Below, in pieces: positions 10,821 to 51,207 of a stretch of DNA of 64,000 bases. The notes below the pieces were generated by a model. That model was not told the DNA's origin. It saw only the letters and a list, made by a program, of their open reading frames with translations, and ran no database searches. Origin of the DNA: Saccharococcus thermophilus. GTDB lineage: Bacteria > Bacillota > Bacilli > Bacillales > Anoxybacillaceae. Numbering within the stretch: the first letter of the stretch is position 1; each line of letters opens with the position of its first letter. The translations under genes were made by a program, and so were the position numbers. The stretch covers positions 2,976,001 through 3,040,000 of the forward strand of contig NZ_JAASRS010000001.1 in NCBI RefSeq assembly GCF_011761475.1, read 5' to 3'.

Positions 10821-10848
10821 AAAAAAAGAACAGGTTAGTACCCTGTCC
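10821..10848 (-). terminator. Terminator overlapping the dagK stop codon
   Basis: On the minus strand ACAGG-GTACTAA-CCTGT is followed by TCTTTTTTTG; the dagK stop codon TAA lies in the loop. It separates dagK from rlmCD, so rlmCD needs its own promoter in the 10646-10820 spacer. I see no convincing one there. Confidence 0.75.
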
Positions 10849-11755
10849 TCATTTGCTCTGCCTTTTCTTTAGATACAAATACTTCCAAGTGCCGGTACAA
10901 ATTGACGAATTCCCCTGGAAGCATGCCGCCAAATTCTCCGTCTAAATTTAACTGCATCGGCGACATCACTTTAATGCGGTTTGCTTTCGTGTAAATGAGA
11001 TTTGGATCATTAATATGTTCGCCGCGCGCCGCGAGTGTGACAAGCCGGATAAACTCGGCCAAATTCGTTTTCTTTAAAATAATTAAATCAAACATGCCGT
11101 CATTTAAAGAAGAATCCGGCACCAGCTTTTCAAAGCCGCCGACCGAGTTCGTCAGCGACACTAAAAATAGCATAATTTCGCCTTCAAACACTTTGCCGTC
11201 ATATTCAATGCGCGCTTCTGTCGCGTTAATGGACGGTAGCATCTCGATTCCTTTTAAATAGTAGGCAAGCTGGCCGAGCATTGTTTTCAATTTGCTTGGC
11301 ACTTCATAGGTCAGTTCGGTTAAACGGCCGCCGCCGGCAATATTAATAAAATAGCGGGTTTTTCCTTCATTCATGGCGCAGCCGATATCGATCGGAACGG
11401 CTTCCCCATTGGCAATAACCTCGCACGCCCCTTCAATCGAACGCGGCACTCCGATCGCGCGGGCAAAATCGTTCGTCGTCCCGACCGGAATAATACCAAG
11501 CTTTGGACGATAATCTTGATCGGCAATCCCGTTGACGACTTCGTTAATCGTTCCGTCTCCGCCGGCAGCCACCACTAAGTCAAATTCACGCTCGACCGCT
11601 TTGCGGGCCGCTTCGGTCGCATCCCCTGCCCCTGTCGTCGCATGGCAGGATGTTTCATATCCCGCTTTTTCCAATTGCACTAATACTTCCGGCAAATGCC
11701 GTTTAAATATTTCCCGGCCTGATGTTGGATTGTAAATGATCCTTGCACGCTTCAT
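10835..11755 (-). CDS. dagK: Diacylglycerol kinase DagK
   Basis: 306 residues, orthologue of B. subtilis DgkB/YerQ. It has the phosphate-binding start IIYNPTSGRE, the catalytic signature AAGGDGTINEVVNGI and LGIIPVGTTNDFAR, all typical of the soluble YegS/sphingosine-kinase-like lipid kinases. It rephosphorylates diacylglycerol released during lipoteichoic acid synthesis and returns it as phosphatidate to phospholipid synthesis at the membrane. It stands in the ancestral order ahead of rlmCD. In B. subtilis gatB is close upstream; here about 21 kb of other genes intervene. Confidence 0.93.
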   Translation of the reverse strand: MKRARIIYNPTSGREIFKRHLPEVLVQLEKAGYETSCHATTGAGDATEAARKAVEREFDLVVAAGGDGTINEVVNGIADQDYRPKLGIIPVGTTNDFARAIGVPRSIEGACEVIANGEAVPIDIGCAMNEGKTRYFINIAGGGRLTELTYEVPSKLKTMLGQLAYYLKGIEMLPSINATEARIEYDGKVFEGEIMLFLVSLTNSVGGFEKLVPDSSLNDGMFDLIILKKTNLAEFIRLVTLAARGEHINDPNLIYTKANRIKVMSPMQLNLDGEFGGMLPGEFVNLYRHLEVFVSKEKAEQMRTGY

Positions 11756-11844
11756 CGTTTCATCATCCTACTTTATTAATGTCAATTTGACTATTTAACA
11801 TAATAGCCGAATTGCCCAGCAGTTGCAATGATGACATCTTTCCA

Positions 11845-11875
11845 TCAAGAAAGGGCTGCTCATCTCAGCCCTTTT
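11845..11875 (-). terminator. Terminator after floT
   Basis: On the minus strand AAGGGCTG-AGATGA-GCAGCCCTT is followed by TCTTG, four bases after the floT stop codon. The stem is strong, the T-run short. Confidence 0.65.
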
Positions 11876-11878
11876 CGA

Positions 11879-13402: not shown

Positions 13403-13959
13403 TCCATATATCCCCCTTTATGTAATGATGAAATATCATATGGATCGTGCTTCGCCACCACGGCGACGCCGTTTTCCATTTTCACAATGATCACTTCCGT
13501 GCCGAAAGCAATTTCTTCGTTGTTCATGCTTTTGGCCGCTTTCGAAATCGCGCCGCTTTTGCGCTGCAATAAAATTTCGCCAAATCCATCGCGCGGAACG
13601 GTGACGATCACTTTAGCAAGCGCCCCTTCCAAATCCGCATCGGAATAGTTTAACGATGTTTCTGCCGACCGAAGCGGAATAAAGACGAAAAAATGCAAAA
13701 GCAATACAATAATGAGTGCAATTCCCCCGCTCATCGCCGCAATCAGCCAGGCAGGCAGCTCCGTATATCTTTCTAGCAAAAAACCGGATGCGCTGCCAAC
13801 GGTGAAAAATGATAACACGAGTTGCGGGCTAAATAGCGGATGATCGGGCAGCTCGAAAACGCCATCAATCACATCGCTGAAGAAAATATATAAGAGCGTC
13901 AAGCTCCCGCTTACAATCAGGATAGCGAGATACACCGTTTCTAACGGATAGCCGAACAC
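13399..13959 (-). CDS. yuaF: NfeD-like membrane protein (YuaF)
   Basis: 186 residues with three or four hydrophobic segments (YLAILIVSGSLTLLYIFF, VLSFFTVGSASGFLL, LIAAMSGGIALIIVLLLHFFVF). A C-terminal OB-fold NfeD domain contains GALAKVIVTVP and NEEIAFGTEVIIVKMENG. I chose the GTG at 13959: AAGGAGG lies 8 nt ahead, and the length fits B. subtilis YuaF. In-frame ATG codons further upstream overlap the promoter and give a nonsense N-terminus. The protein works with flotillin, encoded by the overlapping next gene. A sigma-W-type promoter lies 35 bp upstream. Confidence 0.88.
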   Translation of the reverse strand: MFGYPLETVYLAILIVSGSLTLLYIFFSDVIDGVFELPDHPLFSPQLVLSFFTVGSASGFLLERYTELPAWLIAAMSGGIALIIVLLLHFFVFIPLRSAETSLNYSDADLEGALAKVIVTVPRDGFGEILLQRKSGAISKAAKSMNNEEIAFGTEVIIVKMENGVAVVAKHDPYDISSLHKGGYME

Positions 13960-13993
13960 CCGCGCTTCCTCCTTCCTTATCATTACCTTATCA

Positions 13994-14020
13994 TACGAAA
14001 GGCACCTTGCTTTAGTTTCA
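13994..14020 (-). promoter_or_regulatory. Sigma-W-type promoter of yuaF-floT
   Basis: On the minus strand TGAAAC, a 17-base spacer, then CGTATG. This is the consensus of the extracytoplasmic sigma factor W (TGAAAC-N16/17-CGTA). The B. subtilis yuaF-floT operon is known to be sigma-W controlled, so position and motif agree. The implied start site is near 13986, upstream of the chosen GTG. Confidence 0.85.
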
Positions 14021-14194
14021 TTGTTTTTCATACATAACATTTTTTCGACAACTTTCCTCATATTTCCTCTTTTTTTACAAAAAGAAAAGCACCGTTCGCT
14101 GCAAATAAAACGGTACCTGCTCTTTTCATTTTCGCCTCCCTTAGCTATATGAACATCAGACGTTTCTTTACCCGGGATGCATGCTCGACTAATA

Positions 14195-14362
14195 TCAGCA
14201 GCGATTACATCTTTTTGCGTGCGGCAATGAAAGCAATCCAATAAAGGCGATGGAAGCAAAAAATACAAGCGTTCCCCATGGCCACGCTTCCCTAGAGGCG
14301 ATGTATTTCTTCCCACACAGCGATGACAAAGAAGTAATCCGCCAGCGCTTTTTCATTTCCAT
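14195..14362 (-). CDS. Possible small membrane peptide (55 residues)
   Basis: Short frame between the htrA terminator and yuaF. It starts MEMKKRWRITSL, has one hydrophobic stretch (WGTLVFFASIAFIGLLSLP) and ends in a basic cysteine-containing tail. The ribosome site is weak (TAGGA close to the ATG). It could be a genuine small protein or the end of a decayed membrane gene. I recognise no family. The rest of 14021-14500 holds nothing else I can support. Confidence 0.3.
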   Translation of the reverse strand: MEMKKRWRITSLSSLCGKKYIASREAWPWGTLVFFASIAFIGLLSLPHAKRCNRC

Positions 14363-14506
14363 TCCTATGTCAAAACTTTTTTATTTTAATCACTCAAAAG
14401 ACGGAAAATTAAGCTATTTGTTCTATATTTACATAATATTCGCGCAGCAGAATATATATGTATGCGATTCCTGCAAGCCAATGTAATATGATGTACGGTT
14501 GTTTCT

Positions 14507-14540
14507 AAAAAAAGAGCCTGTCCGCCCAATGCGAACAGGC
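14507..14540 (-). terminator. Terminator after htrA
   Basis: On the minus strand GCCTGTTCGC-ATTGGGC-GGACAGGC followed by TCTTTTTTT, beginning about 15 bp after the htrA stop. Confidence 0.88.
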
Positions 14541-14554
14541 ATAAGTAGATATGA

Positions 14555-15772
14555 TTATGATTCGCTGTCCCCTCTCGCCCGCAATGTAATAGAAGCCGTT
14601 TTCTTTTCACCGTTGCGATAAAAGACAACCGTCACTTTCTCACCAATTTTCGTTTTCGTATATAAATATTTTCGCAACGCGTTGACGCTGTCTACCTTTT
14701 GCCCATTTATTTCGACGATGACATCTTTCGATTGAAGCCCCGCATCCGCAGCTGGAGAGAACGGTTCTACCGCTGTCACCGCCGCTCCTGCCGTTACACT
14801 GTCTGGCAATTGCAGCTGTCCTTTTCGTACCTCATCAGAAAGATCGGCGACATCTACCAGCTGCACGCCAAGATACGGGCGTTTGATTTTCCCGTATTGC
14901 ATCAGCTGTTCCACAATCGGCTTGACATCTTCGCTTGGAATGGCAAATCCTAATCCTTCCACTCCCGTTTCGGAAATTTTTAAACTGTTAATTCCAATCA
15001 CTTGCCCCGCGCTATTAATGAGCGCGCCTCCGCTGTTACCCGGATTAATCGCAGCGTCTGTTTGAATCACGTTTAACTCCCATTCGCCAGCAGAAGTGGA
15101 AACAGGAATGGTGCGTTTTCCGCTCACAATCCCTTCCGTCACCGTCCGCGATAAATCGAGGCCAAGCGGATTGCCGATCGCCGCAACTGGTTCCCCGATC
15201 CGCAATTTGGACGAGTCGCCGAAGCTTGCTACTTTGGTGACGTGGCTGCCGTCAATTTTTAATACGGCTAAATCCGTTAGCGGATCGGCGCCTACAATCT
15301 CCGCTTTCACCTTTTTGCCATCGGCCAGCGATACTTCCACTTTGTTCGCACCTTCAATCACGTGGTTATTCGTGACAATATACGCGGTATTTCCATCCTT
15401 TTTGAAAATGACTCCCGAACCAGTTCCCGCTTCCTGATCTACTGTACTATCAGAAAAGAAATCTTCCTGTTTTTGAATGTTCACGACACCGACAACGGCA
15501 TCCGTGACGTTTTGAATCGCGGTCACCATGTTAGTGGACACGCTTCTTGTCGGTTGCAGCGGGAGCGTCTCTGTAGATGTAGAAGTGTTGGCCTGTTTCG
15601 TTTCTCCTGCAGATGTCGAAGGGGAAGAGATGCCCACCTTCGGCGCAGCGTATAACGTAATCGCACTGCCAAGCACCGCCCCTGCAACCGAAGCGGCGAG
15701 CCAAGAAAAGAAACGGCCCCTTTTTGGTGGTCGAACGGTTTGTGGTTCATATGGCATCATATTCATATCCAT
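14555..15772 (-). CDS. HtrA/DegP-type membrane-anchored serine protease
   Basis: 405 residues. A short cytoplasmic N-terminus is followed by one transmembrane anchor (FFSWLAASVAGAVLGSAITLY) and a Ser/Thr-rich linker. The trypsin-like domain has all three catalytic residues: His in TNNHVIEG, Asp in LTDLAVLKI, Ser in NPGNSGGALI. A C-terminal PDZ domain runs from about residue 300 (AAVTAVEPFSPAADAGLQ). It degrades or refolds misfolded secreted proteins at the outer membrane face. It is divergent from a two-component system, the arrangement of B. subtilis htrB (yvtA) and cssRS, so control by that system is likely. Confidence 0.9.
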   Translation of the reverse strand: MDMNMMPYEPQTVRPPKRGRFFSWLAASVAGAVLGSAITLYAAPKVGISSPSTSAGETKQANTSTSTETLPLQPTRSVSTNMVTAIQNVTDAVVGVVNIQKQEDFFSDSTVDQEAGTGSGVIFKKDGNTAYIVTNNHVIEGANKVEVSLADGKKVKAEIVGADPLTDLAVLKIDGSHVTKVASFGDSSKLRIGEPVAAIGNPLGLDLSRTVTEGIVSGKRTIPVSTSAGEWELNVIQTDAAINPGNSGGALINSAGQVIGINSLKISETGVEGLGFAIPSEDVKPIVEQLMQYGKIKRPYLGVQLVDVADLSDEVRKGQLQLPDSVTAGAAVTAVEPFSPAADAGLQSKDVIVEINGQKVDSVNALRKYLYTKTKIGEKVTVVFYRNGEKKTASITLRARGDSES

Positions 15773-37994: not shown

Positions 37995-38921
37995 CGTTTC
38001 AAAGCGTATGAAAACGGAAAAATTGAACTGTCGATGGGCATTCATCACGGGAAAAGCCGATCGTCGTGTATGCGTCGCGTCTGCCAAAGGGAGCGATCAA
38101 AGAAATCGAATGCTGCTTTGATCACGGTCTTTATTTGACCGTGACGTATGAAGATGGGCAAGAGGTCAAAGCGTATGAACTCGGTTCATCCGTCGAGTCG
38201 ATCTTGGGAAAGTGTATACCATTGGAGCGTTTTGCGAAAACGGTCAAGCCCTTCTCATCACTGGAAGAAAAATAAGCTCCCTTCACCAGTTGGGGAATAA
38301 AAAACTGACGGAAATTCAGTTGTGCCAATCTAAATGTCAAAAAGGATCGCGTCAATGGAAAAAGTATGAACGGGCAAAACAATATTTGTTATCAAAATCT
38401 GAAAGACAGTTGCGAGATGCGCTACATAAAATAACGAAACAGTTTGTCGACTGGTGTTTAAATAAAGCAGGCCGCCTCTGATGTGTATATCGGAAACGTC
38501 GAAGTAGTGCAGCGGAACACGAGAAAGAAAAAGCGGGCAAGCCGCAAACAAGCGCAAAACTCCCGAATTGGTCATTTGGGAAAGTGAAGAAGTATTTCCC
38601 TTATAAGCTGACTCAGCATGGCATTCACTTGCATGCAATCGAAGAGTCATATACCAGACAAACATGTCCTGTCTGTCAAAAGAGAAAAAAGTGTCTTCCT
38701 GCCTGTTTGTGTGCCGGTGTGGGTATGAGGAACATCGTGACGTTCATGGAACGAGAAATATCTTAAGCAAAGCACCGCTCGGCACCTTCAAACACTGGAG
38801 CATACAAACGAAGATAACGTATCTACGGATTGCACAAGCAAGAAGTAGTAGAAGGGTTGGACCGCCCCATCGGTGTGGTGCCGATGTTGCTTACGGAATC
38901 CATCGGGAAGGCTTCCGATGA
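37995..38921 (+). pseudogene. Decayed IS200/IS605-type TnpB gene, 5' truncated with several frameshifts
   Basis: Pieces in different frames line up with one TnpB. FKAYENGKIELSMGIHHGK and RLPKGAIKEIECC come first (to about 38150). Then IGAFCENGQALLITGRK with KCQKGSRQWKKY and KQFVDWCLN (38212-38465). Then KVKKYFPYKLTQHGIHLHAIEESY, and last the zinc-ribbon/RuvC end CPVCQK...FVCRCGYEEHRDVHGTRN. The N-terminal third is missing, and there are at least three frame changes plus a stop. TnpB is the RNA-guided nuclease of IS605-like elements; this copy cannot be active. Confidence 0.85.
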
Positions 38922-39026
38922 ATTCATCGAGTAGAAGGAGACCGCGTTCTTCTGCGCAGAAGCTTCTTCGACGGAGATAGTAAGAAACTCCCACCTCTTT
39001 ATGGAATGAAGGTGGGAGAGGTTCAT
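38922..39026 (+). mobile_element. Right end of the IS605-type element, omega-RNA scaffold region
   Basis: Downstream of the TnpB remnant a G+C-richer segment with several short stems ends in the hairpin CTCCCACCT ... AGGTGGGAG (38988-39018) and GAGGTTCA. This is the usual right end of IS1341/IS605 elements, which doubles as the 3' part of the TnpB guide RNA. It looks better preserved than the protein. The exact end is uncertain by a few bases. Confidence 0.6.
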
Positions 39027-39413
39027 TTTAGATTGATGTACTTTGGAGGAGATATTTTCGCACATCGGAATGATCATCTAATTCATGCAATTATATACTG
39101 TGTGTATGATCTTTTAGCCAATCGATTTGAGAAGAAATATTATTTTTCGGTAAAGCATACGCTTATCGTCTTCTTCTTTTTCTTATCTTTGATAAACGAA
39201 GATGGTAAGCGGAAATTCCTCCATGGTTGATGATTTGCTCACCTTTACCATACAGGAAATTTCGCTTTTTTGTATCCTTACGTACCAAAAGACTTGATCG
39301 TCAAGTACATTTTGTGGTGAAGAGCCATAAATATATTTTTGTGATTGATCTCCTTTTAAAAAACTTGAATTTGTCTATCACGGATTCAGGTTATATAGTA
39401 AATTCCACTTTTT
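39027..39413. other. A/T-rich spacer, no gene recognised
   Basis: 387 bp between the TnpB element and the IS982 copy. Only short frames without ribosome sites or family resemblance. Base composition is more A/T-rich than the surrounding genes. Confidence 0.5.
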
Positions 39414-39422
39414 ATACTAAAC

Positions 39423-40423
39423 ACCCGTGGTGCTAGATAAAATCAGACAAGCATAAAAATAGCCCTTGCATGAGGATCTCCTTAAAATGAAAGTGCGACC
39501 AAACATTTAAAAGGAGAATTCACATGCAAGAGCACTTTCATTTTACAACAGATCGAGCCAAACTTCAAAAACAATATGTATCGATTTTGTGTTTTGTATC
39601 AGCTCAACTATCGAGTATCCAGATTCATCTTCAACGTCGAAATCTTCATTTGTTGAAACAGAAGGACGAGGTCATCATCGCCGTCCATATCCTTGGAAAG
39701 TTGTTAGGCTTCACTTCCGAACGGGCTTGGCACCGGTTTGTGATCGGGAATTTGTTTTCCAAGGACTTGTTCCCTGAACGTTCTCGATACAACCGTCGCT
39801 GCCGAGCGCTTGGCTTTGCGATCAAGTGGATGCGGCACCAGCTGGCCAAGCGTGGACAACACCATGCGTATGCGGTCGTGGACAGTTTGCCGATCGAGCT
39901 GTGTCATTCATCCCGAATGTATCGTGCCAAACGGTTTCGTGGAATTGCGGATATTGGCTATTGTGCTTCGAAAAAGATCGCTTTCTATGGGTTGAAACTT
40001 CATCTGCAGGTCACCGACCAAGGGCTTCCGATGGGATATGTCGTCACTGAAGCGTCTTGTCACGATCGGGTGGCCGCTGAAACCGTCATGACGCAAATTC
40101 CACATCCATATAACCCAGGTGACAAAGGGTACATCAGCCAAAAACTACAAAAGAAGCTGTACGAAGAGCATCGAGTCGCTTTTTGGACGCCCGTTCGAAA
40201 AAATCAGCGAATTCTCCAATCCGACGCATGGAAACAGTGGATGAAACGAAAACGCAAAGTGATTGAAACCGTGTTTTCGATTTTAGTCGATTCGTATCGG
40301 ATCACCGAGATTCGAGCGAACTCGGTTTCTGGATTTGAAACGGCACTGGATGGTATTTTACTGGCTTACTCCCTTGTTGTTCTTGGGCTAGTTGAGTGTT
40401 AAAACTCAACTAGCACCACGGGT
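39423..40423 (+). mobile_element. IS982-family insertion sequence, copy 2 (1001 bp)
   Basis: Same 14-bp terminal repeats as copy 1 (ACCCGTGGTGCTAG). The 9-bp target ATACTAAAC is duplicated at 39414-39422 and 40424-40432, so this is a clean transposition. The right duplication ends one base before the stop codon of the HEAT-repeat gene. Confidence 0.96.
39524..40402 (+). CDS. IS982-family transposase
   Basis: 292 residues, intact, nearly identical to the product of copy 1. Catalytic DDE blocks VVDSLPIELC, NPGDKGYISQK and KRKVIETVFSILVD are present. AAAGGAG precedes the ATG. Confidence 0.93.
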   Translation: MQEHFHFTTDRAKLQKQYVSILCFVSAQLSSIQIHLQRRNLHLLKQKDEVIIAVHILGKLLGFTSERAWHRFVIGNLFSKDLFPERSRYNRRCRALGFAIKWMRHQLAKRGQHHAYAVVDSLPIELCHSSRMYRAKRFRGIADIGYCASKKIAFYGLKLHLQVTDQGLPMGYVVTEASCHDRVAAETVMTQIPHPYNPGDKGYISQKLQKKLYEEHRVAFWTPVRKNQRILQSDAWKQWMKRKRKVIETVFSILVDSYRITEIRANSVSGFETALDGILLAYSLVVLGLVEC

Positions 40424-40432
40424 ATACTAAAC

Positions 40433-40959
40433 TTATTCTTTCAGTTCGTCGATCTTGCGATTCATCGCTTTGAACAAAGCTTCCGCCGCCGCCAGATGTT
40501 TATATTTGTCGTTGCTGTTGTTCCATCCTTCTTGCAAGATCGGGAGAGCATGTAGCTTGGTCGGATTGTTCATGACTAACGCCCAAGCTGCCCAAAACTG
40601 TACCTCCTTATCCTCATTTTTTAGACACTGTTCAAGCGCTTCCTCTGCAGCGGGACCGATTCTCATCAGGGACAAGGCAGCAGACATGCGTGCCTCCTGA
40701 TTGCCATCTTTCAAGAACTGAATAAGTTCAGGGACCGCTTGCGACGCAACAGGTCCAAGCTCCCCGAGCACAACAGCAGAAATTGACCGTACATTGTGAT
40801 CAGAGGATCCCTTAACCCTTCGACTAATGCAGGCACTGATGCATCTCCCTGTTTGATTAGCGTTTTAGCGGCCTCCCACATCGACTCCCTTTTTCCCAAC
40901 GCTTGCACGTAAGAGGTGAGAGCGTTTGTTTCTTTCTTCATCAAATCTTTTGGATCCAT
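40433..40959 (-). pseudogene. HEAT-repeat protein, split by a one-base frameshift
   Basis: The first frame (40959 leftward, MDPKDLMKKETNALTSYVQA) and the second frame (SSDHNVRSISAVVLGELGPV onward, ending IDELKE) together make one protein of about 175 residues with HEAT/PBS-lyase-like repeats (VPELIQFLKDGNQEAR, ALEQCLKNEDKEVQ). One base appears to be lost around GGGATCCTCTGATC (about 40800). It lies 45 bp after the permease gene on the same strand and is probably the last gene of the comQX-like operon. HEAT repeats bind proteins; no more specific role can be given. Confidence 0.7.
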
Positions 40960-41004
40960 ATTATTTTCACATTCCTTTCTTTTTAATCATTTTCATCTAG
41001 CTTC

Positions 41005-42213
41005 TTATAAGTTTGGTGGAAACTTATAAGAACTAGGAGGTGTTACCCAGGAAGGGCCAATTTGCAAGACAATTTCCTCATGAGCATCTAAGATTATATT
41101 CGACGGGTCGCCTGTATATTCCTTGCCATTGACATAGGCTTTCACTTCCGTACCACTTGGTGCCACCCAATCAGCAACCTGCTTTTTCGACAATGGTTTG
41201 TGCCAGATTAGAAAAAATTCGCCTAGCGTATAATCCTTTTTCACTGGCGACTCTACATGAATAATACCGGAATCATCATGAGTATGTAGCCAATACATAC
41301 AACCACCCTTTTCCGAGATTCCGATAAATTTTGGTAGTGTTTGGTGCTTTCCATCGACATAAATATCGAGATGCACATGGATGTGATAGCGGTCTTGCTC
41401 CATCATATCGCATTTGATGCCAGCGATAGCCGGTTGTGGTTCAAGATGAGTTCGGTTATAAATAAGATATCCTGTAAAGGCAAGAACTGCACAAATAGAG
41501 ATTGCCAAAATGGAGGACGTGTAATCCCATTTTTTGGCCATCCCCGCCTGTCCTCCCTTTAGCGTGCTGCTTTTGAGAAACCGTAGGGCCGCTATCCAAG
41601 TCAACCATCCAGCCAGAAGATCACTCACCAACAACACTGGTGCAGGATTGCCGTCTAACCGAACAGTCACTTCCATCAGAAGAAAGTTAAGCAGAATAGC
41701 CACGAAAAATAAACGAAAGACATTATAAAAATACGAGACAGGAGTCACTCGACCGTCTTGGAAATTGGCCCGAGCAATGCTCATAATGCGAATACTATAT
41801 GTAATTACCACCACTCCGATACAAATGGCAAAAAGATCAATAATTCGATCGATCTTCCACTGGGCAGCGAAACCACCCACGACCAAATACATCAACAGGT
41901 TAAACAGCGCAAATAACAGATAGGGTATCTCAGAACCGATCACTTTCTTGCTTAGTTTACCAGGCAAAAGCATCAAGTCTCCCGTCTGCAGATGACGCAT
42001 CGTACCCGAGTAATAGCCGCTGAACAGAGTAGAAAAGGCAACTAGTATCGGCAAAAAATAGAGCAGCAAGGAGTACTTGCGAGCCACCAAAGCTACAACC
42101 GCAACCGACAACAGAAATTGAAAAGTCATTCGTAGCCGCCTTCTGCGTAACACTGCTAACTCCATCCATAGAAAAGCCCACTCTTTGCGATACTTTGCGC
42201 CCCCCCCCGCCAA
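41005..42213 (-). CDS. ABC exporter permease part 2 with a C-terminal His-rich extracellular domain
   Basis: 402 residues from a TTG at 42213. About six hydrophobic segments fill residues 25-265. Then comes a soluble domain with HIHVHLDIYVDGKHQ, MYWLHTHDDSGIIHVESP and YTLGEFFLIWH. Such HxHxHLDIYV...WLHTHD...GIIHIESP domains occur in uncharacterised secreted or membrane proteins; the histidines could bind a metal. The start region overlaps the end of the preceding permease in another frame, and removing one G from the G9 run at 42200-42208 would fuse both into one protein of about 690 residues. The current start is therefore doubtful. Confidence 0.65.
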   Translation of the reverse strand: MAGGGAKYRKEWAFLWMELAVLRRRRLRMTFQFLLSVAVVALVARKYSLLLYFLPILVAFSTLFSGYYSGTMRHLQTGDLMLLPGKLSKKVIGSEIPYLLFALFNLLMYLVVGGFAAQWKIDRIIDLFAICIGVVVITYSIRIMSIARANFQDGRVTPVSYFYNVFRLFFVAILLNFLLMEVTVRLDGNPAPVLLVSDLLAGWLTWIAALRFLKSSTLKGGQAGMAKKWDYTSSILAISICAVLAFTGYLIYNRTHLEPQPAIAGIKCDMMEQDRYHIHVHLDIYVDGKHQTLPKFIGISEKGGCMYWLHTHDDSGIIHVESPVKKDYTLGEFFLIWHKPLSKKQVADWVAPSGTEVKAYVNGKEYTGDPSNIILDAHEEIVLQIGPSWVTPPSSYKFPPNL

Positions 42214-43043
42214 GAAGTGGCGCCTTTCTTATACTTAGTTGTTGACATCGGCATGTTGTTCCGGCTTGCTATGTCTGCCCAATAAATGGCGTCCATCACA
42301 GCATTCTCTTTGATTTTGCTCTGCGAGGGAACGAACAAAAAGATCAACCCAACCAGGATGATAAGACCAATCTCCAAAAATCCCAAAGAATTAGTCAATC
42401 CAATCATAACTCCTCCCATACCTTGGGCAAGTACGAACAATGAGCCAGCCAACAAACCATGAACAATTTTTCCGTCCTTTAACAGCATCACGACCAAACT
42501 TAGGATAAGCAAACCACCAATCAACGAAAACCAAAAGAGCAATTTAGAAAGGAGTTTATGTCCACGGGTGCAGGAAGCTCCTACCTGCCACAAGGAAAGG
42601 GCAAAAAGGACGGGTAAACCGTACAGCACACTAAGAAAATCGAAATTTGAAATGCCCTTCAACAATAGATTTGCCAAGTTTGCCATCAGAGCTGACAACA
42701 GCCAAATACCAAATCGAAGCAATCCTCTCCAGACGGCAACGGCAAGAGCAACCTTTCGAATTGAATAAGGGGTCGTATATATCCAAAATACATCTTCCAT
42801 TTTACTTGGCAATTGAGTGGAAGTAGGCCCTATCAATGAAAAAAACAAAAGCATTCCAATAAGACCCCATCCAATGGTAGTGGCACTTGATTGCATATCA
42901 TTCAAATGGGACAAAACCAAGTATTGAGCGGCAAACGAAAGAGCGAAAAAAACACTCGAAACCAACAGCATTCCACGGACTCCCATCCCGGTGCGAAGTT
43001 GACGGATGCTGTTAAGCGCCAAAAGGTGTAGGATCCTAATCAT
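42156..43043 (-). CDS. ABC exporter permease part 1
   Basis: 295 residues from the ATG at 43043 (MIRILHLLALNSIRQLRTG); the longer upstream frame lies in the ATPase gene. Six or so helices (MLLVSSVFFALSFAAQYLVL, TIGWGLIGMLLFFSLIG, LVVMLLKDGKIVHGLL and others). It resembles the first half of Firmicute 'putative ABC exporter' permeases. Stop codon falls 13 codons after a run of nine G; see the neighbouring entry. It overlaps the ATPase gene by 8 bp, so the two are coupled. Confidence 0.65.
   Translation of the reverse strand: MIRILHLLALNSIRQLRTGMGVRGMLLVSSVFFALSFAAQYLVLSHLNDMQSSATTIGWGLIGMLLFFSLIGPTSTQLPSKMEDVFWIYTTPYSIRKVALAVAVWRGLLRFGIWLLSALMANLANLLLKGISNFDFLSVLYGLPVLFALSLWQVGASCTRGHKLLSKLLFWFSLIGGLLILSLVVMLLKDGKIVHGLLAGSLFVLAQGMGGVMIGLTNSLGFLEIGLIILVGLIFLFVPSQSKIKENAVMDAIYWADIASRNNMPMSTTKYKKGATSWRGGAQSIAKSGLFYGWS
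42200..42208. repeat. Homopolymer run of nine C (G on the coding strand)
   Basis: Nine consecutive C on the plus strand inside the permease coding region, where the two permease frames meet. With eight G the two frames join without a stop. Runs like this are classic slippage sites and also common places for sequencing error. Confidence 0.9.
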
Positions 43044-43770
43044 CCTTTTTCTCCCCCTTAAGCAGATTGACAATCTGCTCTTGCCAGTGTTGAAATTTCT
43101 CTTCCTCCGTCGGAACCATATCTTCTCTAATCACTTGCCCCTGAGAGAGCACGACAACACGCGTTGCGACTTTACAGAGAAAATCAAGGTTATGCGTAGA
43201 AACCAGCACACCCGCTCCCTGTTGAGCTTTGACTTTCAGCCAATCGATTAGCCATTGGATCGAGACGGGATCTAGGCCAGCTGTCGGTTCATCCAAAACA
43301 TAAAGAGAGGCATTTTGTAAAACCGCTCCTGCCAAAATTACCCGTTGACGCTGCCCACGAGACAACTCGCCACCCATACGAGTTGCAAATTCAAAAAGCC
43401 CTACTTCTTGCAAAGCCGCTTCTACAAGCATCTTAATATCTCCTTTAAGATCAAATGCCTTTGCTCGGAAATAGAGGTGCTCTTCGACTGTCAAGAGCGG
43501 ATACAGATTCGGATTATCGGGAATAAAGGCAATGGATTTCAAAGCTTCAGGTGACCCAGCTGGTAATTCACCAACTGTCACGCTGCCCGTATTCGGACCT
43601 AACAGACCAAGACAACAGCGAATGGTAGTGGTTTTTCCTGCTCCATTCGCTCCTAGTAGTCCCACAATTTCTCCTTGATTCACGGTAAAATGAACATTAT
43701 GAATTCCTGAACCATTGCGGTATCGTTTGGTTATATTCTTAACAGTCAGAATATTATTCATTCTTCCCAC
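43036..43770 (-). CDS. ABC transporter ATP-binding protein
   Basis: 244 residues. Walker A GLLGANGAGKTTTIRCCLG, Q-loop FIPDNPNLYP, signature GGELSRGQRQRVILAGA, Walker B SLYVLDEPTAGLDP, H-loop VSTHNLDFL. Most similar to ATPases of drug, antibiotic or lantibiotic-immunity exporters (CcmA type). Its start abuts the stop of the ComP-like protease gene (no gap) and its end overlaps the permease. It should energise the split permease; the cargo is unknown, with a pheromone or antimicrobial peptide as possibilities. Confidence 0.88.
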   Translation of the reverse strand: MGRMNNILTVKNITKRYRNGSGIHNVHFTVNQGEIVGLLGANGAGKTTTIRCCLGLLGPNTGSVTVGELPAGSPEALKSIAFIPDNPNLYPLLTVEEHLYFRAKAFDLKGDIKMLVEAALQEVGLFEFATRMGGELSRGQRQRVILAGAVLQNASLYVLDEPTAGLDPVSIQWLIDWLKVKAQQGAGVLVSTHNLDFLCKVATRVVVLSQGQVIREDMVPTEEEKFQHWQEQIVNLLKGEKKDD

Positions 43771-46299
43771 CTATCCTTTAGTCACTGCGTTGTTGATTGG
43801 CAAAGCTTTACGATTTATCTTCGATTTGGTTAGAGCAATCGGTGCAAACATCAAAATGAAATTGTGAATGAAATGTGCAACCAATGCAGCAATAAAGCCA
43901 TACTGTAGGTACAACTCTCCCATGACGAAACCCAATGCAACGATCTCGCTCCATCGGATGATGCGTGGATGCGTACCAGTCCCTGTATGAATAATAGCCC
44001 AAAGCAATGACGTAACCAACACAGCTAACCAAGGCTGATGGGTCAACCACACTATAACAGGAATTCCCATTAACCGATAGATCGCTTCTTCTCCGATCGA
44101 ACTTTGCAAGCTCATGCTTAGGGCACCTTTCCAGTTGTATCCTGAAACAAACATCGTATAGTCAGACAGCTCTGGCGCAATGCGAACTTTTCCTGTCGAT
44201 TGCAACATAGCATTGAGCCATGTCATTCCACCAAGACAAGCAATACCGGCTGTTACTCCAACAATTATCTGATTGACCGGATGTTCAAACGCGGAGATGC
44301 CGATCTGCTCTGTCAAAAATAGGCCGACCGACGTACTGATTAACACCACGCACATCGTTGCGATCGCTTGAAACAGTGACATTACAAGTGTTAGCATACG
44401 AATAGCGCGTTGATTGACCCGCACATCATACGAGTTAATCATAGAAAATTCAAATCCATCGTTGGTTACAAGTACAACAGCGAATAAGATGATTGCGGCC
44501 AACACTCCACCAAAATTCCAATTCAATTTACCGCCTTCTATGGTGATAATCAGAAGTCCGATCACAGCTGCAATAAAAGATCCCAGCACACCCGAAAGGT
44601 TCAGCACTTTATCCAAAAACTCACGTTGCACCACCTGGCTGAGAGTGGGAGCAAAAATCTCTGGCTCCATATGAACTTGCCAGACAATACCCTCCTTTAA
44701 GCTACCTAACTCTTTTATGACATCCTCTACTTTTAACATATTTTCAATCGTGACGCTGGCATAATAGACAATGGTTGATAACCAATCTTTTTGTTCTGAC
44801 CGAAATGGAATAGGATGTTTCTTTTTTCCTATTAATAGTAAAGGACTTTGCCGGAACGAGCCTACAAAAACCGCAAACAAACGCTTATTTTCAATAATTT
44901 TTCCAATCGAAAGTGGTTGTCTATCCATCTTTTTGGTTAACTTCGTCCACTCTTTTTCATCGCAATGAAAAGGTGCTTGCATATCTCTGATCGCTAATTG
45001 TACAAAAGCCAGATTCTCTATATCTAATACTTCTCTCACCTCTTTTTCTAGGAATTGTATCACTTCTCGCATGTTTTTCTGTTTTTTTAATGTTTCACTG
45101 ATTCGATATATACTTTCTTGATAAAAGTTTTTTTGTACATATAACTTCGCTCTTAATGTTCGATCGAAATATCCTTTTAAATAGAGAGCAAGGATATTTA
45201 TTACATAAATCAGTAAAAACAACAAAACGAGTTCAGCAAGTCTCCCCGCTTTATTGACAAATTTGGCATAAAGCAATGTAACAAGAAAAGACGGAAGTAA
45301 TGATAAAAAAGCATAGTACACAAAGTGATTGATGGAAAACTGTAATCGAAACAGCCGATCCATACCAATTAAATAAAGAAAGACGGATGGCAACACAAAA
45401 AGCGAAGTAACGGTTAATTCGGCTGGTAGTACCCATTTTCCAATGATTAGAACCGGGAGACTATAAAATAAAACAAATGGTGCGGCAGATAGTCCAATGG
45501 CTAAAAGCAAACCTCTGACCGTATGTTGCTGTTCATCTTTTTTAAGATAAACTAATCCTTTTCCTAACAAGGCCAAGATCGTAGCAACGTTAAGCAGCAA
45601 TGCACCTAATAGAAATTTTTTCTCACTTATCCAATGAAGTTTTAAACCAACAAACTCGATTAAATTAACTCTATAAAGAAGAAAAACAATTTTTTTCGTA
45701 AACCACACTTTCTTCTCTTTTTCAAAATAATCATAAAGAAAATGCAAAAATATAACAGGTAGAAACAAAAATGTGCCAATAAATATTTGTCTTCCAATCG
45801 TTTCATATTTCGCTGATAAGCTAGCACTTATATAGCAAAGACCCGCCAATAATAAAAAATAAATAAGCACTGTAGATGGTTTATCATGTGTCCGCAAGCG
45901 AAGTAAAAAGACACTTAAACTAGCAACGAAAATAAAAAAACTTATCGGCAAAATGAGGTAGTACATGAATTGACTGATTAAATTTGGTTCATACGATATT
46001 GTGAATACTTGGATTTGATTTCCTCTCTGAATGGTAACGGTTTTTGCTTGCTCAATTGCACCGTATTCCCGAACAGTAAAATGGGACAAAGGGGGCTTTC
46101 CATCCACTTTAAGCACTCGATCATGTACTTGAATATTATGATTTTTTGCCCAACCAAACTCATAAATTTCTTTTACAAAGGTTTCCCCATTCTTTTCAAC
46201 TACATTGATTCCGATTAATGGGTATTGCAAATTTAAAATGGTGAGGTATAAAACAAGAACAGACGCAACAATAAAGGCTATTATAGTTGTTCGATTCAT
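43771..46299 (-). CDS. ComP-like pheromone sensor fused to a CPBP (Abi) intramembrane protease
   Basis: 842 residues. Residues 1-540 follow B. subtilis ComP throughout: first helix (1-30), PDZ-like extracellular segment (about 33-103), a multi-helix membrane domain (about 110-375), and the cytoplasmic linker YVQKNFYQESIYRISETL with WLSTIVYYASVTIENMLKVED (506-526), which in ComP leads into the kinase. Here no HisKA_3 or HATPase follows. Residues 565-842 are a helical membrane domain with the CPBP glutamic-protease motifs: EEAIYR (737-742), the histidine of LLWAIIH (771) and HFIHN (809-813). It follows comX by 6 bp, coupled translation likely. Role, sensing the ComX-type pheromone and cleaving a membrane substrate, or maturing the pheromone, is inference. 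Confidence 0.85.
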   Translation of the reverse strand: MNRTTIIAFIVASVLVLYLTILNLQYPLIGINVVEKNGETFVKEIYEFGWAKNHNIQVHDRVLKVDGKPPLSHFTVREYGAIEQAKTVTIQRGNQIQVFTISYEPNLISQFMYYLILPISFFIFVASLSVFLLRLRTHDKPSTVLIYFLLLAGLCYISASLSAKYETIGRQIFIGTFLFLPVIFLHFLYDYFEKEKKVWFTKKIVFLLYRVNLIEFVGLKLHWISEKKFLLGALLLNVATILALLGKGLVYLKKDEQQHTVRGLLLAIGLSAAPFVLFYSLPVLIIGKWVLPAELTVTSLFVLPSVFLYLIGMDRLFRLQFSINHFVYYAFLSLLPSFLVTLLYAKFVNKAGRLAELVLLFLLIYVINILALYLKGYFDRTLRAKLYVQKNFYQESIYRISETLKKQKNMREVIQFLEKEVREVLDIENLAFVQLAIRDMQAPFHCDEKEWTKLTKKMDRQPLSIGKIIENKRLFAVFVGSFRQSPLLLIGKKKHPIPFRSEQKDWLSTIVYYASVTIENMLKVEDVIKELGSLKEGIVWQVHMEPEIFAPTLSQVVQREFLDKVLNLSGVLGSFIAAVIGLLIITIEGGKLNWNFGGVLAAIILFAVVLVTNDGFEFSMINSYDVRVNQRAIRMLTLVMSLFQAIATMCVVLISTSVGLFLTEQIGISAFEHPVNQIIVGVTAGIACLGGMTWLNAMLQSTGKVRIAPELSDYTMFVSGYNWKGALSMSLQSSIGEEAIYRLMGIPVIVWLTHQPWLAVLVTSLLWAIIHTGTGTHPRIIRWSEIVALGFVMGELYLQYGFIAALVAHFIHNFILMFAPIALTKSKINRKALPINNAVTKG

Positions 46300-46305
46300 T
46301 TTTCT

Positions 46306-46461
46306 CTACACCCAATATTCGAGTGGCTTAATTGATTCACCAAATACCTCTACAATCGCTTTTACCTCTAACTCACTTAAACCTATCAAGCTCACCGTAC
46401 CATTTTGTAATTTTTCGATGACTTCTGGATGTTCTACTAAAAAGCGAATGATTTCTTGCAT
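46306..46461 (-). CDS. comX: ComX-like pheromone precursor
   Basis: 51 residues, overlooked by length filters. It starts MQEIIRFLVEHPEVIEKLQN, the pattern of ComX precursors (MQ-(D/E)-(L/I)-I...F...(Y/H)PE...(K/L)L). The middle VSLIGLSELEVKAIVEVFG matches the conserved 'LIG...E' segment. It ends in KPLEYWV, with one tryptophan at position 50, the residue that ComQ prenylates in ComX. GGAGGGGG lies 8 nt before the ATG. It stands between comQ (19 bp upstream) and the ComP-like gene (6 bp downstream), the canonical comQXP order. Confidence 0.88.
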   Translation of the reverse strand: MQEIIRFLVEHPEVIEKLQNGTVSLIGLSELEVKAIVEVFGESIKPLEYWV

Positions 46462-46480
46462 CGCAGATCCCCCTCCAACA

Positions 46481-47395
46481 TTACAAAATAATTGTTTTCA
46501 GTGCGGATTTGTACCTATCGTCTACATCCAGTTTCTCGATTTCTTGCAAAGCCTTTTCCTTGTAAATCTGGCTCATCACTTTAGCATAATAAAACGCTCC
46601 TTCCTGTTCCATTTGCTGAATCACTTTTTCTTTTTGGGCATAAAGCTCATTGTAATCAATATGATTGCTAAAATACTGTTTCAATAAGTTATCCCGTTTA
46701 CTTGCCAGCATGTACAATACCGGAAGCGACTTCTTCTTTGCTTTGATGTCGTTCTTCTCATCCCAACGATACAACGCATCGATATCATTGTCGATTTGCG
46801 CAGCGATTCCTATATCATTGGCATACTTTTCAATGATGACAGTGTTCCTTTCAGCACCTGCTAATGCAGTTCCGACTAAACAAGCCATTGCTACTAGAGA
46901 ACCCGATTTTTTCTTCATCACTTCTAAATACTCAGCTTCTGTTTGTATATCATGTGTGAGATTCATATGTTGCCCATTTAAACTTTGAAACAATCGAGAT
47001 AAAATATATGACTGTGCCTTTACTTTTTTATGATCATCGATGGGTAAATCTGCAATTGCTTTTTGTCCTAGGAGCAATAACCCGATAACGATATGAAGGA
47101 AGATGGCAAGAGGTGCATTGCTCCACGAAGTTTCCAAGCCGTCCTGATCAACGAGGTCATCGAGTAGATCCCCCGCTAACATCATCAGTTCTACAGCCGT
47201 TGCGATTTGTTCGGCTTCCTTGATGTTTTCGGAAAACATCTGATAATGCACACTAGCTAAGCGACCAAACAAAAAGTCGCTTCGTTTTGCTTGCTCTTCT
47301 ATCAATGTCAATACCGCTTCTTTTAAAGATGGCGCAGAAAAAGATGCTTCGACGATCTCTCTCATTTTAATCTTAACTGTCTCTTTTTCCATCAT
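46481..47395 (-). CDS. comQ: ComQ-like isoprenyl transferase (ComX prenylation)
   Basis: 304 residues of the trans-prenyltransferase fold. The first aspartate-rich motif is GDLLDDLVDQDG (Asp79, Asp80, Asp83) and the second is QIDNDIDALYR (Asp202-206). The second motif is the relaxed version typical of ComQ, unlike the strict DDxxD of heptaprenyl synthases. Its neighbour is a ComX-type peptide, so transfer of a geranyl or farnesyl group to Trp50 is the expected reaction. GGTGA precedes two ATG codons; the second may be used. First gene of the operon; no strong promoter is evident. Confidence 0.88.
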   Translation of the reverse strand: MMEKETVKIKMREIVEASFSAPSLKEAVLTLIEEQAKRSDFLFGRLASVHYQMFSENIKEAEQIATAVELMMLAGDLLDDLVDQDGLETSWSNAPLAIFLHIVIGLLLLGQKAIADLPIDDHKKVKAQSYILSRLFQSLNGQHMNLTHDIQTEAEYLEVMKKKSGSLVAMACLVGTALAGAERNTVIIEKYANDIGIAAQIDNDIDALYRWDEKNDIKAKKKSLPVLYMLASKRDNLLKQYFSNHIDYNELYAQKEKVIQQMEQEGAFYYAKVMSQIYKEKALQEIEKLDVDDRYKSALKTIIL

Positions 47396-47479
47396 TTCAC
47401 CAACATCTTATATAATATTTCCTAAATAGATAAATTACGACAAAATTTGTAAAATTCCTTCTCCATATCGATAAAAAAA

Positions 47480-47515
47480 TTCTAAAACAAAACCTCTTTG
47501 CCATTTGCAAAGAGG
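47480..47515 (-). terminator. Leftward terminator upstream of comQ
   Basis: On the minus strand CCTCTTTGC-AAATG-GCAAAGAGG followed by TTTTGTTTT. It follows a 30-codon frame and shields comQ from upstream reading. Confidence 0.85.
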
Positions 47516-47525
47516 CCTTTCAAAT

Positions 47526-47618
47526 TCAAGATTTAACTATTAGGAGCAGTATTTCAAAGAGAACAGTAATAGTTTTAGATGTGCCAGAGGTTAAAAATGA
47601 ATTTATATCTGTTTTCAT
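47526..47618 (-). CDS. Possible 30-residue hydrophobic peptide
   Basis: Reads MKTDINSFLTSG at the start and ITVLFEILLLIVKS at the end: a polar head and a hydrophobic tail. The only ribosome-site-like sequence (GGGAGGG) is the 3' arm of the pruA terminator, 10 nt ahead. It has its own terminator directly behind it. It may be a chance frame. If real, it could be a small toxin-like or secreted peptide next to the quorum-sensing operon. Confidence 0.25.
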   Translation of the reverse strand: MKTDINSFLTSGTSKTITVLFEILLLIVKS

Positions 47619-47659: not shown

Positions 47660-49207
47660 TTAGAACATTTCCGATACCGTTTTTGCTTGCATATGAAGAA
47701 TTAAGTAGTCAGGGCCGCCCGCTTTCGAGTCGGTGCCGGACATGTTGAAGCCGCCGAATGGCTGATAGCCGACGATCGCGCCCGTGCAGCCGCGGTTGAA
47801 GTAAAGATTGCCAACATGGAATTCTTCCCGCGCTTTTTCGAGGTTGGCGCGGTTGCGGGAGATGACGGCGCCGGTTAAGCCATATTCCGTGTTGTTGGCG
47901 ATTTCGAGCGCATGATCGAAATCTTTTGCTTTCGCAAACGCCACAACCGGTCCGAAGATTTCTTCTTGCATGATGCGAGCGTTCGGGTCAAGATCAGCAA
48001 ATACGGTCGGCTGAATGAAGAAGCCTTTGGAGTCGTCTCCTTCGCCTCCGGTCATGAGACGGCCTTCTTGTTTGCCGATTTCGATATATTCCATAATTTT
48101 GTTGTATGCCGATTGGTCAATGACCGGGCCCATAAATGTGCTTTGTTCTGCCGGATCGCCAACTTTTAATTGTTTTGTCAGCTCAACAACGCGGTTTAAT
48201 ACTTGATCATACACATCTTCGACGACAATCGCGCGCGAGCATGCCGAGCATTTTTGCCCAGAGAAACCGAACGCCGATGCGACGATCGATTGTGCTGCTA
48301 ATTCTAAGTCCGCTTCTTTGTCGACAACAATGGCGTCTTTCCCGCCCATCTCGGCAATAACGCGCTTGAGCCAGATTTGGCCTGGATGCACTTTCGCCGC
48401 GCGTTCATAAATGCGGATGCCGACATCGCGCGAACCAGTGAAGCTGATAAAACGGGTGCGTGGGTGGTCAACGAGGTAGTCCCCTACTTCCGCACCGCTT
48501 CCCGGAATGTAGTTTAATACTCCCGCCGGAAGGCCAGCTTCTTCTAACACTTCCGCGAATTTGTAAGCAACTACAGGTGTTGCGCTCGCTGGCTTCAATA
48601 GAACCGTGTTGCCTGTCACAAGCGCCGCAACCGTTGTTCCTGCCATAATCGCAAACGGGAAGTTCCATGGCGAAATAACGACGCCGACGCCAAGCGGAAT
48701 GTAGAAGAACCGGTTCGTTTCACCAGGGCGGCTTTCAACTGGAATGCCGTCTTTTAATTTCAGCATTTGCCGCGCGTAATATTCCATAAAGTCAATCGCT
48801 TCTGCCGTATCCGCATCCGCTTCTTTCCACGGTTTTCCTGCCTCTTTTACCAGCAATGCCGAAAACTCATGTTTGCGGCGGCGCACAATCGCAGCGGCGC
48901 GGAACAGAATGTCAGCACGCGCTTCTGGTTTTGTTTTGCTCCACCATTTAAACGCTTCATCGGCAACTTTCATTGCTTTTTCGGCAAGTTCTTTATTCGC
49001 TTTCGACACGCGGCCGATTACTTCCGTCTTATTCGCAGGGTTAATCGAAACGATTTTCTCGTCGGTTGTAACCCGTTCACCGCCAATAATGAGAGGATAG
49101 TCTTGGCCAAGCTCCGCTTCGACTTTTTTCAGCGCCTCTTCAAACGCTTTTCGATTCGCTTCAACCGTAAAATCTGTGAGCGGTTCATGTTTATAAGGTT
49201 GTACCAT
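47660..49207 (-). CDS. pruA: L-glutamate gamma-semialdehyde dehydrogenase (1-pyrroline-5-carboxylate dehydrogenase)
   Basis: 515 residues, full length, the RocA/PutC type of Bacillus. [26 protein letters not shown], catalytic cysteine in [24 protein letters not shown] and the C-terminal [14 protein letters not shown] are all present. It oxidises glutamate semialdehyde to glutamate in proline and arginine breakdown. Stands alone here; an IS element begins 56 bp ahead of its start codon and may separate it from its original promoter. Ribosome site AAAGGGGGAAATCAAGG. Confidence 0.95.
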
Positions 49208-49262: not shown

Positions 49263-51149
49263 CTCACATTTCGCACCCTAACAAGGTCAAAACAAAGGAT
49301 TTTTTATTTAGTTTTTCAGAATAACTTTTTGACCAACACAACGAGCGATGGCAATCCTTTTTTTACCATCGCTGGTCGTTCCGTATCACGTTACACGTAG
49401 ATGCTCTCATCCATGCCCAATCCCTGCAGAATCCTTCGCTGATCAGGGGTAAGGGAGCGATCCAGTGAGCGTTGGATGCGCCCATCCGGCAGCTTGAACA
49501 GGACGACGTTCACATATTGAAACAGCTGAAAAATCGCCTGTCCCGTCGGCCGGGTCAGCTTGCGGCCTCCAGGACCCTTCAACGGGTGTTCTGGAGTAAT
49601 AAACTGACGCACTCGGCGCTGAAAAACGCGGTAAATAGCCAAGGCCAACAGAAACAAATAGCCTAATACTGCGACCCGTTCTGGTTTTTTGACGTAAATC
49701 TCATCCGTGAAAAACGGATCTTTCAAAAAAGCGAAGTTCATTTCCACCGAGATCTGCCCTTTATACAGCTTCAAGATCTCTTGGGCATCCATGGGTTGGC
49801 CCTTCCATTCCTTCGGAACGGTCGTGACAAGGACAAACCGGGACGCTTTCCGTCTCGCCTGTTCCCACGCGTCTTGGTCGAATTCGACGTCAAGGTGCAA
49901 GAAATACAGCGTCTCCACCTCGGGTTCCGCCCCTTTTTTCGGCCGTCCGCGCCGTTTTTTCAGGCGTACGATCTCTTCGACCGCGGCCTCAACCCGATGA
50001 AACCGGGGGCGAAGGGACGCCTTGAGGGACGCCAAGGCTTGTTCGGCATCTTCCCGGCAGGAGAAGGGGTGACGCTCCCAACGGGCTTGTTCCTCGCGAA
50101 GAAGCTCCGCTTCTTTGGTTCGTTCTTTTTCAAGCGTCTTTCCTTTTCGCTGGTCGAGCGCGCTCGATTCAACAACGATCAGCCGAACGGGGTGGCCTTC
50201 ATACGTCGAGGCCGTTTCCCATACCCGGTACGTGGCGCCGTTTCTCTCCGCCAACGTAAAGGGATCGCTCCACGTCGTGTCCTCAGCATCCGCTTCGGCC
50301 AGCGCGGTTTTCACGATCCGGAGCGACGAAGGGCCTCTGGTGATCAAAAAGGCGTTGGCCGCTTTGGTTTGCGCCAGGGTCTCTTTCGTCATCGCGGCGG
50401 AATCGGCCACGTAAATCCATTCGTCTTCGATTTTGGCCTGCTTCAGCTGTTCATGGACACGAGACAGCACCTCGGGATTCCATGTTTTATCGGGCAGGTT
50501 GCCATCGTGCACATCGCCGTAAAACGGGATGCCGTCCTCGTTGCCGACCAGTCCGAAACCGATCTGTTTTTGCCAACGATGATGGCGGTTGTAGCCATGT
50601 GTGATTTGTAAGGCCTCTAACGAGGCCGATTCATACGCGCCGTAAACGGTCTTGTCCGTCGTATCGGCGTGGAAGGCTCGGAGGGAAAGGCCTTCTTTTC
50701 GATAAATATGAATCAAGCAAGTGCTGATGACGTTGTGAATGCCAGCCTCATACAGGCGATCGAGATGACGGGCCAACGCATCGTCGTTCAACCAGGAAGG
50801 ATGGAGATCGGGACGGATGAGTTTCTCACAATCGACCTCCTGAGCCCAATGTTCCAAGTGAACAAGGGCTTGCCGGCCGTCAAACACATTGTAGAGGATG
50901 GCCTGAACGGCATCGCTGACTCGCGTTTGGCACTGCGGATCGACGGGCACGAGATGGTCAATCAATTGAGGCAGACCCAGTTTCTTGAATAGGGCACTTA
51001 TTATATTCAAATAAGAATTGCGATAGACCTTTTTGACTTGAACGTTCATAAGTGAAAAACTCCTTTACGTTCCTTGTGTGTCAAGGATTCATTCGACATC
51101 GGAACGAAAAAATCCTCCCGATTTTCGTCGAGAGGGTGCGAAATGTGAG
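49263..51149 (-). mobile_element. IS1634-family (IS4 superfamily) insertion sequence, 1887 bp
   Basis: Terminal inverted repeats CTCACATTTCGCACCCT (left, 49263) and AGGGTGCGAAATGTGAG (right, ending 51149), with ACCTAC duplicated at 49257-49262 and 51150-51155. One transposase gene. The clean 6-bp duplication and intact gene indicate recent insertion between pruA and camS. Confidence 0.93.
49391..51049 (-). CDS. IS1634-family transposase
   Basis: 552 residues, apparently intact. DDE residues fit FHADTTDKTVYGAY and WIYVADSAAMTKET. The C-terminal YREK-type signature is YKGQISVEMNFAFLK with Gln in place of Arg. A long insertion with a charged helix (LEKERTKEAELLREEQARW) sits before the last catalytic block, as usual for this family. 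Catalyses movement of the surrounding element. Confidence 0.93.
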   Translation of the reverse strand: MNVQVKKVYRNSYLNIISALFKKLGLPQLIDHLVPVDPQCQTRVSDAVQAILYNVFDGRQALVHLEHWAQEVDCEKLIRPDLHPSWLNDDALARHLDRLYEAGIHNVISTCLIHIYRKEGLSLRAFHADTTDKTVYGAYESASLEALQITHGYNRHHRWQKQIGFGLVGNEDGIPFYGDVHDGNLPDKTWNPEVLSRVHEQLKQAKIEDEWIYVADSAAMTKETLAQTKAANAFLITRGPSSLRIVKTALAEADAEDTTWSDPFTLAERNGATYRVWETASTYEGHPVRLIVVESSALDQRKGKTLEKERTKEAELLREEQARWERHPFSCREDAEQALASLKASLRPRFHRVEAAVEEIVRLKKRRGRPKKGAEPEVETLYFLHLDVEFDQDAWEQARRKASRFVLVTTVPKEWKGQPMDAQEILKLYKGQISVEMNFAFLKDPFFTDEIYVKKPERVAVLGYLFLLALAIYRVFQRRVRQFITPEHPLKGPGGRKLTRPTGQAIFQLFQYVNVVLFKLPDGRIQRSLDRSLTPDQRRILQGLGMDESIYV

Positions 51150-51207
51150 ACCTACCATTCTAACGGATAAATCAATATGATTCAATTTTTTCAAAAAAAC
51201 GAAAAAA

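Follow-up and report, generated by a model that had tools for sequence, protein, structure and literature searches.

The 842-residue open reading frame at 43771-46299 of the stretch of Saccharococcus thermophilus DNA analysed here (reverse strand, uninterrupted from its ATG to its stop codon) is very likely a recombination scar, probably left when a comQXPA-skfABCEF cassette lost about 4 kb by deletion, and probably a non-working remnant. The frame joins a ComP sensor to the C-terminal part of SkfC, the predicted CPBP protease of the sporulation-killing-factor (skf) operon; it is probably a real gene structure, though probably no novel type of receptor. The whole stretch, hereafter the window, covers 64,000 nt (GCF_011761475.1, contig NZ_JAASRS010000001.1, positions 2,976,001 to 3,040,000).

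A recent in-frame deletion in an acquired and decaying cassette would have joined codon 536 of comP to codon 195 of skfC. The deletion would have taken place within one cassette, and the reading frame would have survived it by chance, an outcome with a probability of about one in three. The product, if made, would be a membrane protein left without an SkfA substrate and unable to phosphorylate a ComA, because the kinase domains are absent. The features of the locus are the following, in window coordinates.

46481-47395, reverse strand: comQ, ComX isoprenyl transferase, intact (PF00348; 63% identical to A. amylolyticus ComQ and 97% to P0033)
46306-46461, reverse strand: comX, pheromone precursor ending in YWV, intact (PF05952, E 5.7e-21)
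44692-46299, reverse strand: 5' part of comP, fusion residues 1-536, sensor and linker without kinase domains (93% identical to P0002, 59.5% to A. amylolyticus ComP)
44691-44692, reverse strand: fusion junction, comP codon 536 against skfC codon 195, placed by comparison with relatives
43771-44691, reverse strand: 3' part of skfC, fusion residues 537-842 and stop, CPBP domain with three motifs (PF02517; 97% and 99% identical to SkfC residues 195-500 of loci L025 and L006, respectively)
43036-43770, reverse strand: skfE, ABC ATPase (PF00005; 96.7% identical to A. amylolyticus SkfE)
41005-43073, reverse strand: skfF, membrane protein, split into ORFs 42156-43073 and 41005-42213 (TIGR04405 on both halves, each below the curated cut-off; 97-98% identical to intact SkfF)
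40433-40959, reverse strand: HEAT-repeat gene of the cassette, split (95-98% identical to the A. amylolyticus HEAT gene; HEAT_PBS weak, below cut-off)
39423-40423, forward strand: insertion-sequence copy where the skf similarity ends, with a DDE transposase at 39524-40402 (a 94% copy lies at 6720-7720)
38006-47541, no strand assigned: acquired stretch, missing from the corresponding site of two genus mates (loci L049 and L050)

The two halves of the fusion protein

Residues 1-536 display a ComP-like layout, with a PDZ-like loop, about nine membrane segments and a linker, and reach 93% identity to ComP kinases. The nearest intact ComP (P0002) possesses both HisKA_3 and HATPase_c, as do 27 of the 29 ComP-type matches listed according to precomputed Pfam assignments (the exceptions being P0007 and P0023). 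Neither domain was found in the fusion when Pfam was run on the whole ORF and on cut pieces, and the only Pfam signal in residues 1-536 was a PDZ match below the Pfam cut-off.

The remainder of the protein corresponds to SkfC from its residue 195 to its residue 500, the first 194 residues of SkfC being missing. P0028, whose source name is CPBP family intramembrane glutamic endopeptidase, shows 97% identity to this half, and a 34% identical match from Bacillus pumilus (P0032) carries the name SkfC. PF02517 was missed when the whole ORF was scanned, and was recovered over its cut-off (E 2.1e-10) once the halves were scanned apart and residues 537-842 were used on their own. CPBP proteases are marked by the motif set EExxxR, H and HxxxN; the fusion has EEAIYR starting at 737, AIIH at 768 and HFIHN at 809. 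An earlier note on this DNA had assigned residues 1-540 to ComP, had seen no HisKA_3 or HATPase domain after the linker, and had recognized the three CPBP motifs in residues 565-842. These assignments hold, with the true boundary at 536/537 and the CPBP part beginning at 537 rather than 565.

A crude count of hydropathy and charge indicates that the SkfC part would retain its native membrane orientation, so that proteolytic activity of the predicted CPBP half is possible; we nevertheless infer that the protease would be inactive in the cell. An AlphaFold2 model of the fusion, built on an alignment of 13 rows, had a mean pLDDT of 44.6 and supports no claim, and a sequence search of the PDB with the ORF gave only two matches, with E 0.29.

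Intact cassettes in two relatives and the missing stretch

Two relatives carry, on one strand, the gene order comQ-comX-comP-comA-skfA-skfB-skfC-skfE-skfF-HEAT: Anoxybacillus sp. J5B_2022 (L006:3941-14837) and the A. amylolyticus plasmid pDSM15939_1 (L025:1834-12738). The annotation of the plasmid reads HEAT-skfF-ABC-CPBP-skfB-skfA-response regulator-ATP-binding protein-comX-polyprenyl synthetase, with every gene on the same strand. These cassettes agree with the window in genes, order and strand for all that the window keeps, but they are intact, whereas the window has a 4-kb gap and two frameshifts.

BLASTN aligned the J5B_2022 locus to the window in two blocks, one from comQ to comP (3876-6625, 69% DNA identity) and one from skfC to the HEAT gene (10581-14856, 99.6%, with 13 mismatches and two gaps over 4,280 bp), and its positions 6625 and 10581 meet at one point of the window. 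In the plasmid, positions 5950 and 9909 (reverse-strand count) also meet at one window point, with DNA identities of 70% (comQXP side) and 97.7% (skf side). Both relatives have about 3.96 kb between the breakpoints, and precisely this content is missing from the window: the kinase domains of ComP, comA, skfA, skfB and residues 1-194 of SkfC. The absence here of the stretch that separates the parents in the relatives is what is expected of a deletion, and it speaks against the new type of receptor that the earlier note had proposed. The parental sequences share at most 1-2 bp at the junction, as judged from the relatives and not from the DNA of the true comP parent, which fits illegitimate recombination. 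Given how few changes separate the skf half from J5B_2022, the event looks recent.

The comQXP and skf halves of the window appear to have different histories, since their DNA identities to the relatives are about 69-70% and 97.7-99.6%, respectively. A similar imbalance exists between the two intact cassettes themselves, where the quorum-sensing proteins are more divergent (ComQ 84%, taken against the plasmid's second copy, ComX 92%, ComP 87%, ComA 78%) than SkfA, B, C, E and F (97.5-98.4%) and the HEAT protein (95%). It is therefore plausible that comQXPA types have been swapped ahead of a common skf block, with a third type in the window, and such a swap would account for the different ages of the two halves of the fusion.

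A second comQXPA locus on the A. amylolyticus plasmid (L025:29890-36367) adjoins a thiocillin-type RiPP cluster and has its comP split by an IS66 element. Two loci from different genera encode, after comA, the same predicted secreted protein of 132 residues (L026:13119-13517 and L033:12402-12800), which we take to resemble a small bacteriocin; the L026 copy had no Pfam match. About 4 kb past comA, the latter locus also encodes a radical SAM-SPASM protein with a PqqD domain (L033:16522-17880), a combination typical of RiPP maturation.

Single copies and missing halves in the genome

Protein searches of the S. thermophilus genome, which is 99.91% complete, found SkfC at one locus only and represented there by residues 191-500. 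The ComP sensor likewise exists in one copy, and the kinase region was found only as paralogues of 24-29% identity. Orthologues of ComA and SkfB were not found in these searches (best matches of 30% and 23-30%, respectively), and SkfA had no match in the genome, although the same query found its target in both of two cassette carriers. As the missing halves, comA, skfA and skfB were found nowhere else in the genome, misassembly is disfavoured. Moreover, the fusion protein was counted on three contigs, the longest of 3,066,460 bases; the contig of this genome has 3,063,264, and at least one more assembly, perhaps of the same strain, therefore seems to hold the fusion. The earlier note had named a local assembly join between two genes as a possible origin of the frame: a join of two genes is indeed present, but it is most likely genomic.

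Distribution of the fusion and of its parents

The fusion architecture was found in none of the 31 other protein matches listed, 29 of which were ComP-type over the N-terminal part and two SkfC-type over the C-terminal part, in a search that scored the best 7,991 candidates by shared words within 0.55-1.75 times the length of the fusion and that very distant fusions may escape. Nor was the architecture seen in any of the 40 other genomes of the family. ComP-type matches occur in 12 of the 41 family genomes, and SkfC in three (G010 and G013, which are the two cassette carriers, and the window's own). At E <= 0.001 no comP or SkfC was found in the two genus mates, which likewise gave no match to SkfA.

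Seven of 397 genomes drawn from the order matched the SkfF profile, five of them over the cut-off; the other two were the window's own genome, with both halves below the cut-off, and a match of 19.9 bits, which was left out. Neither G010 nor G013 figures in the seven (not drawn or missed), so that these numbers are no full census. A query with the N-terminal SkfF ORF returned no match at E <= 0.001, itself included, within a length range that excludes full-length SkfF. We searched the five loci over stretches of 17-20 kb for comQ, comX, comP and comA with A. amylolyticus queries at E <= 1e-4. Two order mates (L054 and L055) have skfABCEF and the HEAT gene in cassette order, with no comQ, comX, comP or comA match within 20 kb around skf. 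Three others (L051, L052 and L053) keep skfE-skfF-HEAT and show no match to skfB or skfC beyond chance over 17-20 kb; from their gene content, these are possible immune non-producers.

Neighbouring genes, decay and the acquired stretch

The comX and comQ genes lie directly upstream of the fusion, and the skfE ORF starts immediately past its stop codon. Since neither ComQ nor ComX is damaged, pheromone may still be made by the strain, but would go unread through the fusion protein. Downstream, skfF is frameshifted by a 2-bp insertion at 42207-42208 (a run of nine G against seven in L006), and the HEAT gene by an added CT, also a 2-bp insertion, at 40804-40805. These two frameshifts count in favour of a remnant. 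Long ORFs elsewhere in the window, of up to 1378 residues, are unbroken, which makes a general sequencing-error problem unlikely; the G run of skfF, taken alone, could be a homopolymer error.

In the ComP part, we counted 36 differences from the nearest kinases, four private to the window and six private to the kinases; at conserved sites the private changes were two in the window versus one in the kinase relatives. This test comprised 28 of 32 proteins (the window's own, five near and 22 outgroup), P0007, P0021, P0028 and P0032 being left out as short, partial or SkfC-type. Its outcome is neutral, with no decay evident in the sequence of the ComP part. The fusion event may be too recent for a visible loss of function, and it does look young, because the skfC part differs from L006 by a single, synonymous change. 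A comP gene broken by stop codons and a change of frame also exists in another genome (L034:8973-11224, G004), so the loss of an intact comP occurs elsewhere too.

Both genus mates keep the flanks of the acquired stretch, with about 90-93% identity over 33.1-38.0 kb and 47.5-49.3 kb of the window. In place of 38006-47541 they hold about 1.9 and 2.3 kb of DNA unmatched in the window, and the site is therefore not a clean empty site. A transposase element at 49263-51152 (DUF4277, ORF 49391-51049), absent from both genus mates, adjoins an aldehyde-dehydrogenase-like gene at 47660-49207.

Alternative explanations

The earlier note had suggested that sensing drives proteolysis. Such a working receptor-protease, in which binding of ComX to the ComP half would gate the CPBP half, is very unlikely, even though the fusion is in frame, retains PF02517 and all three CPBP motifs in a compatible membrane orientation by the crude count of hydropathy and charge, has intact comQ and comX beside it, and shows no excess of private changes in its sensor half. 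Against it stand the absence of the architecture from all 31 other matches listed, the occurrence of the parents as separate genes in two relatives, the loss of the 194 N-terminal residues of SkfC, the failure to find SkfA or orthologues of SkfB and ComA in the genome, the frameshifts in the next genes, and an skf half too newly acquired to show selection (one synonymous change relative to L006). The same slight likelihood attaches to a newborn receptor-protease, where the deletion would have coupled SkfC's CPBP domain, correctly oriented in the membrane, to the ComX-sensing part of ComP and the pheromone would switch intramembrane proteolysis on or off; if true, it would have been caught at its origin, before any shaping by selection. 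Chances are slimmer still that the assembler joined two separate loci. The identity profile does change abruptly at the junction, but the other halves of comP and skfC, together with comA, skfA and skfB, were not found elsewhere in a 99.91% complete genome, and the fusion protein is counted on three contigs, of which at least one seems to come from another assembly, possibly of the same strain.

Within the reading as a scar, deletion inside one cassette has a serious rival, to which a minor but real share of our confidence goes: a fragment beginning inside skfC may have recombined horizontally into a resident comP. The step from 69% to 99.6% DNA identity to L006 across the junction would fit such a join, as would the IS copy at the distal end of the skf stretch. 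However, the intact cassettes also have a comQXPA more divergent than their skf genes, which leaves a third type plausible, and the two genus mates lack comP as well as SkfC at E <= 0.001. Retention of the fusion for a by-effect is improbable; it might keep translation running from comX into skfE, or act as a pheromone sink or as part of SKF immunity. The position of skfE directly past the fusion stop agrees with this, and the three order mates that have kept skfE-skfF-HEAT, with skfB and skfC missing from the stretches fetched, provide parallels for toxin loss with the transporter kept, but skfF, the partner of skfE, is frameshifted in the window. A scar, probably of a deletion within the cassette, thus remains our preferred explanation.

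Relation to known systems

The fusion shares with ComP, the histidine kinase of comQXPA, the PDZ-like loop, the membrane segments, the linker and the comQ and comX neighbours, and differs from it by the loss of HisKA_3 and HATPase, by having no comA behind it, and by the lack of a ComA orthologue in our searches. With SkfC, a putative CPBP/Rce1-like protease of the skf operon, it has in common residues 195-500 followed by skfE and skfF, but not the first 194 residues, and skfA and skfB orthologues were not found in the genome. The loci L054 and L055 are alike in their skfABCEF-HEAT order, and differ in having no comQ, comX, comP or comA match in 20 kb. A CPBP protease of the MroQ type matures AgrD, and the earlier note had considered that the protease might mature the pheromone in the same manner. 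Like MroQ, the fusion is of the CPBP family and is connected with peptide signalling; its protease half is that of SkfC, however, and so belongs to a toxin operon, and we found no link to ComX maturation. We thus rejected the CPBP half as an MroQ-like ComX maturase.

According to published sources, the skf operon comprises skfA, two genes for maturation (skfB and skfC) and an immunity transporter encoded by skfEF (PMC13343845), skfC encodes a putative protease and Spo0A activates skf in B. subtilis 168 (PMC8172795), comQXPA-like loci were found in Geobacillus and Anoxybacillus in a census (PMC4008528), and in 22 genomes, including that of Geobacillus thermodenitrificans, comX has a class II lanthipeptide cluster nearby (PMC12715929). 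Neither a ComP-CPBP fusion nor comQXPA beside skf was described in the literature that we searched, with few subscription papers among it. Within that scope, the linked comQXPA-skf cassette is a new combination of systems that are each known.

Our analysis removes a candidate for a new signalling architecture, and illustrates that deletion within a gene cassette can produce what looks like a designed domain fusion. The checks applied here can be reused: whether each half is present in a single copy, whether the missing halves are found elsewhere, and whether the parents sit in one cassette in relatives. The intact comQXPA-skf cassette is a by-product of more interest than the fusion itself. 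As a complete comQXPA directly precedes the skf operon in two Anoxybacillus-type genomes, gene order suggests that SKF production is controlled there by cell density through ComX, in contrast to B. subtilis 168, where skf is driven through Spo0A (PMC8172795).
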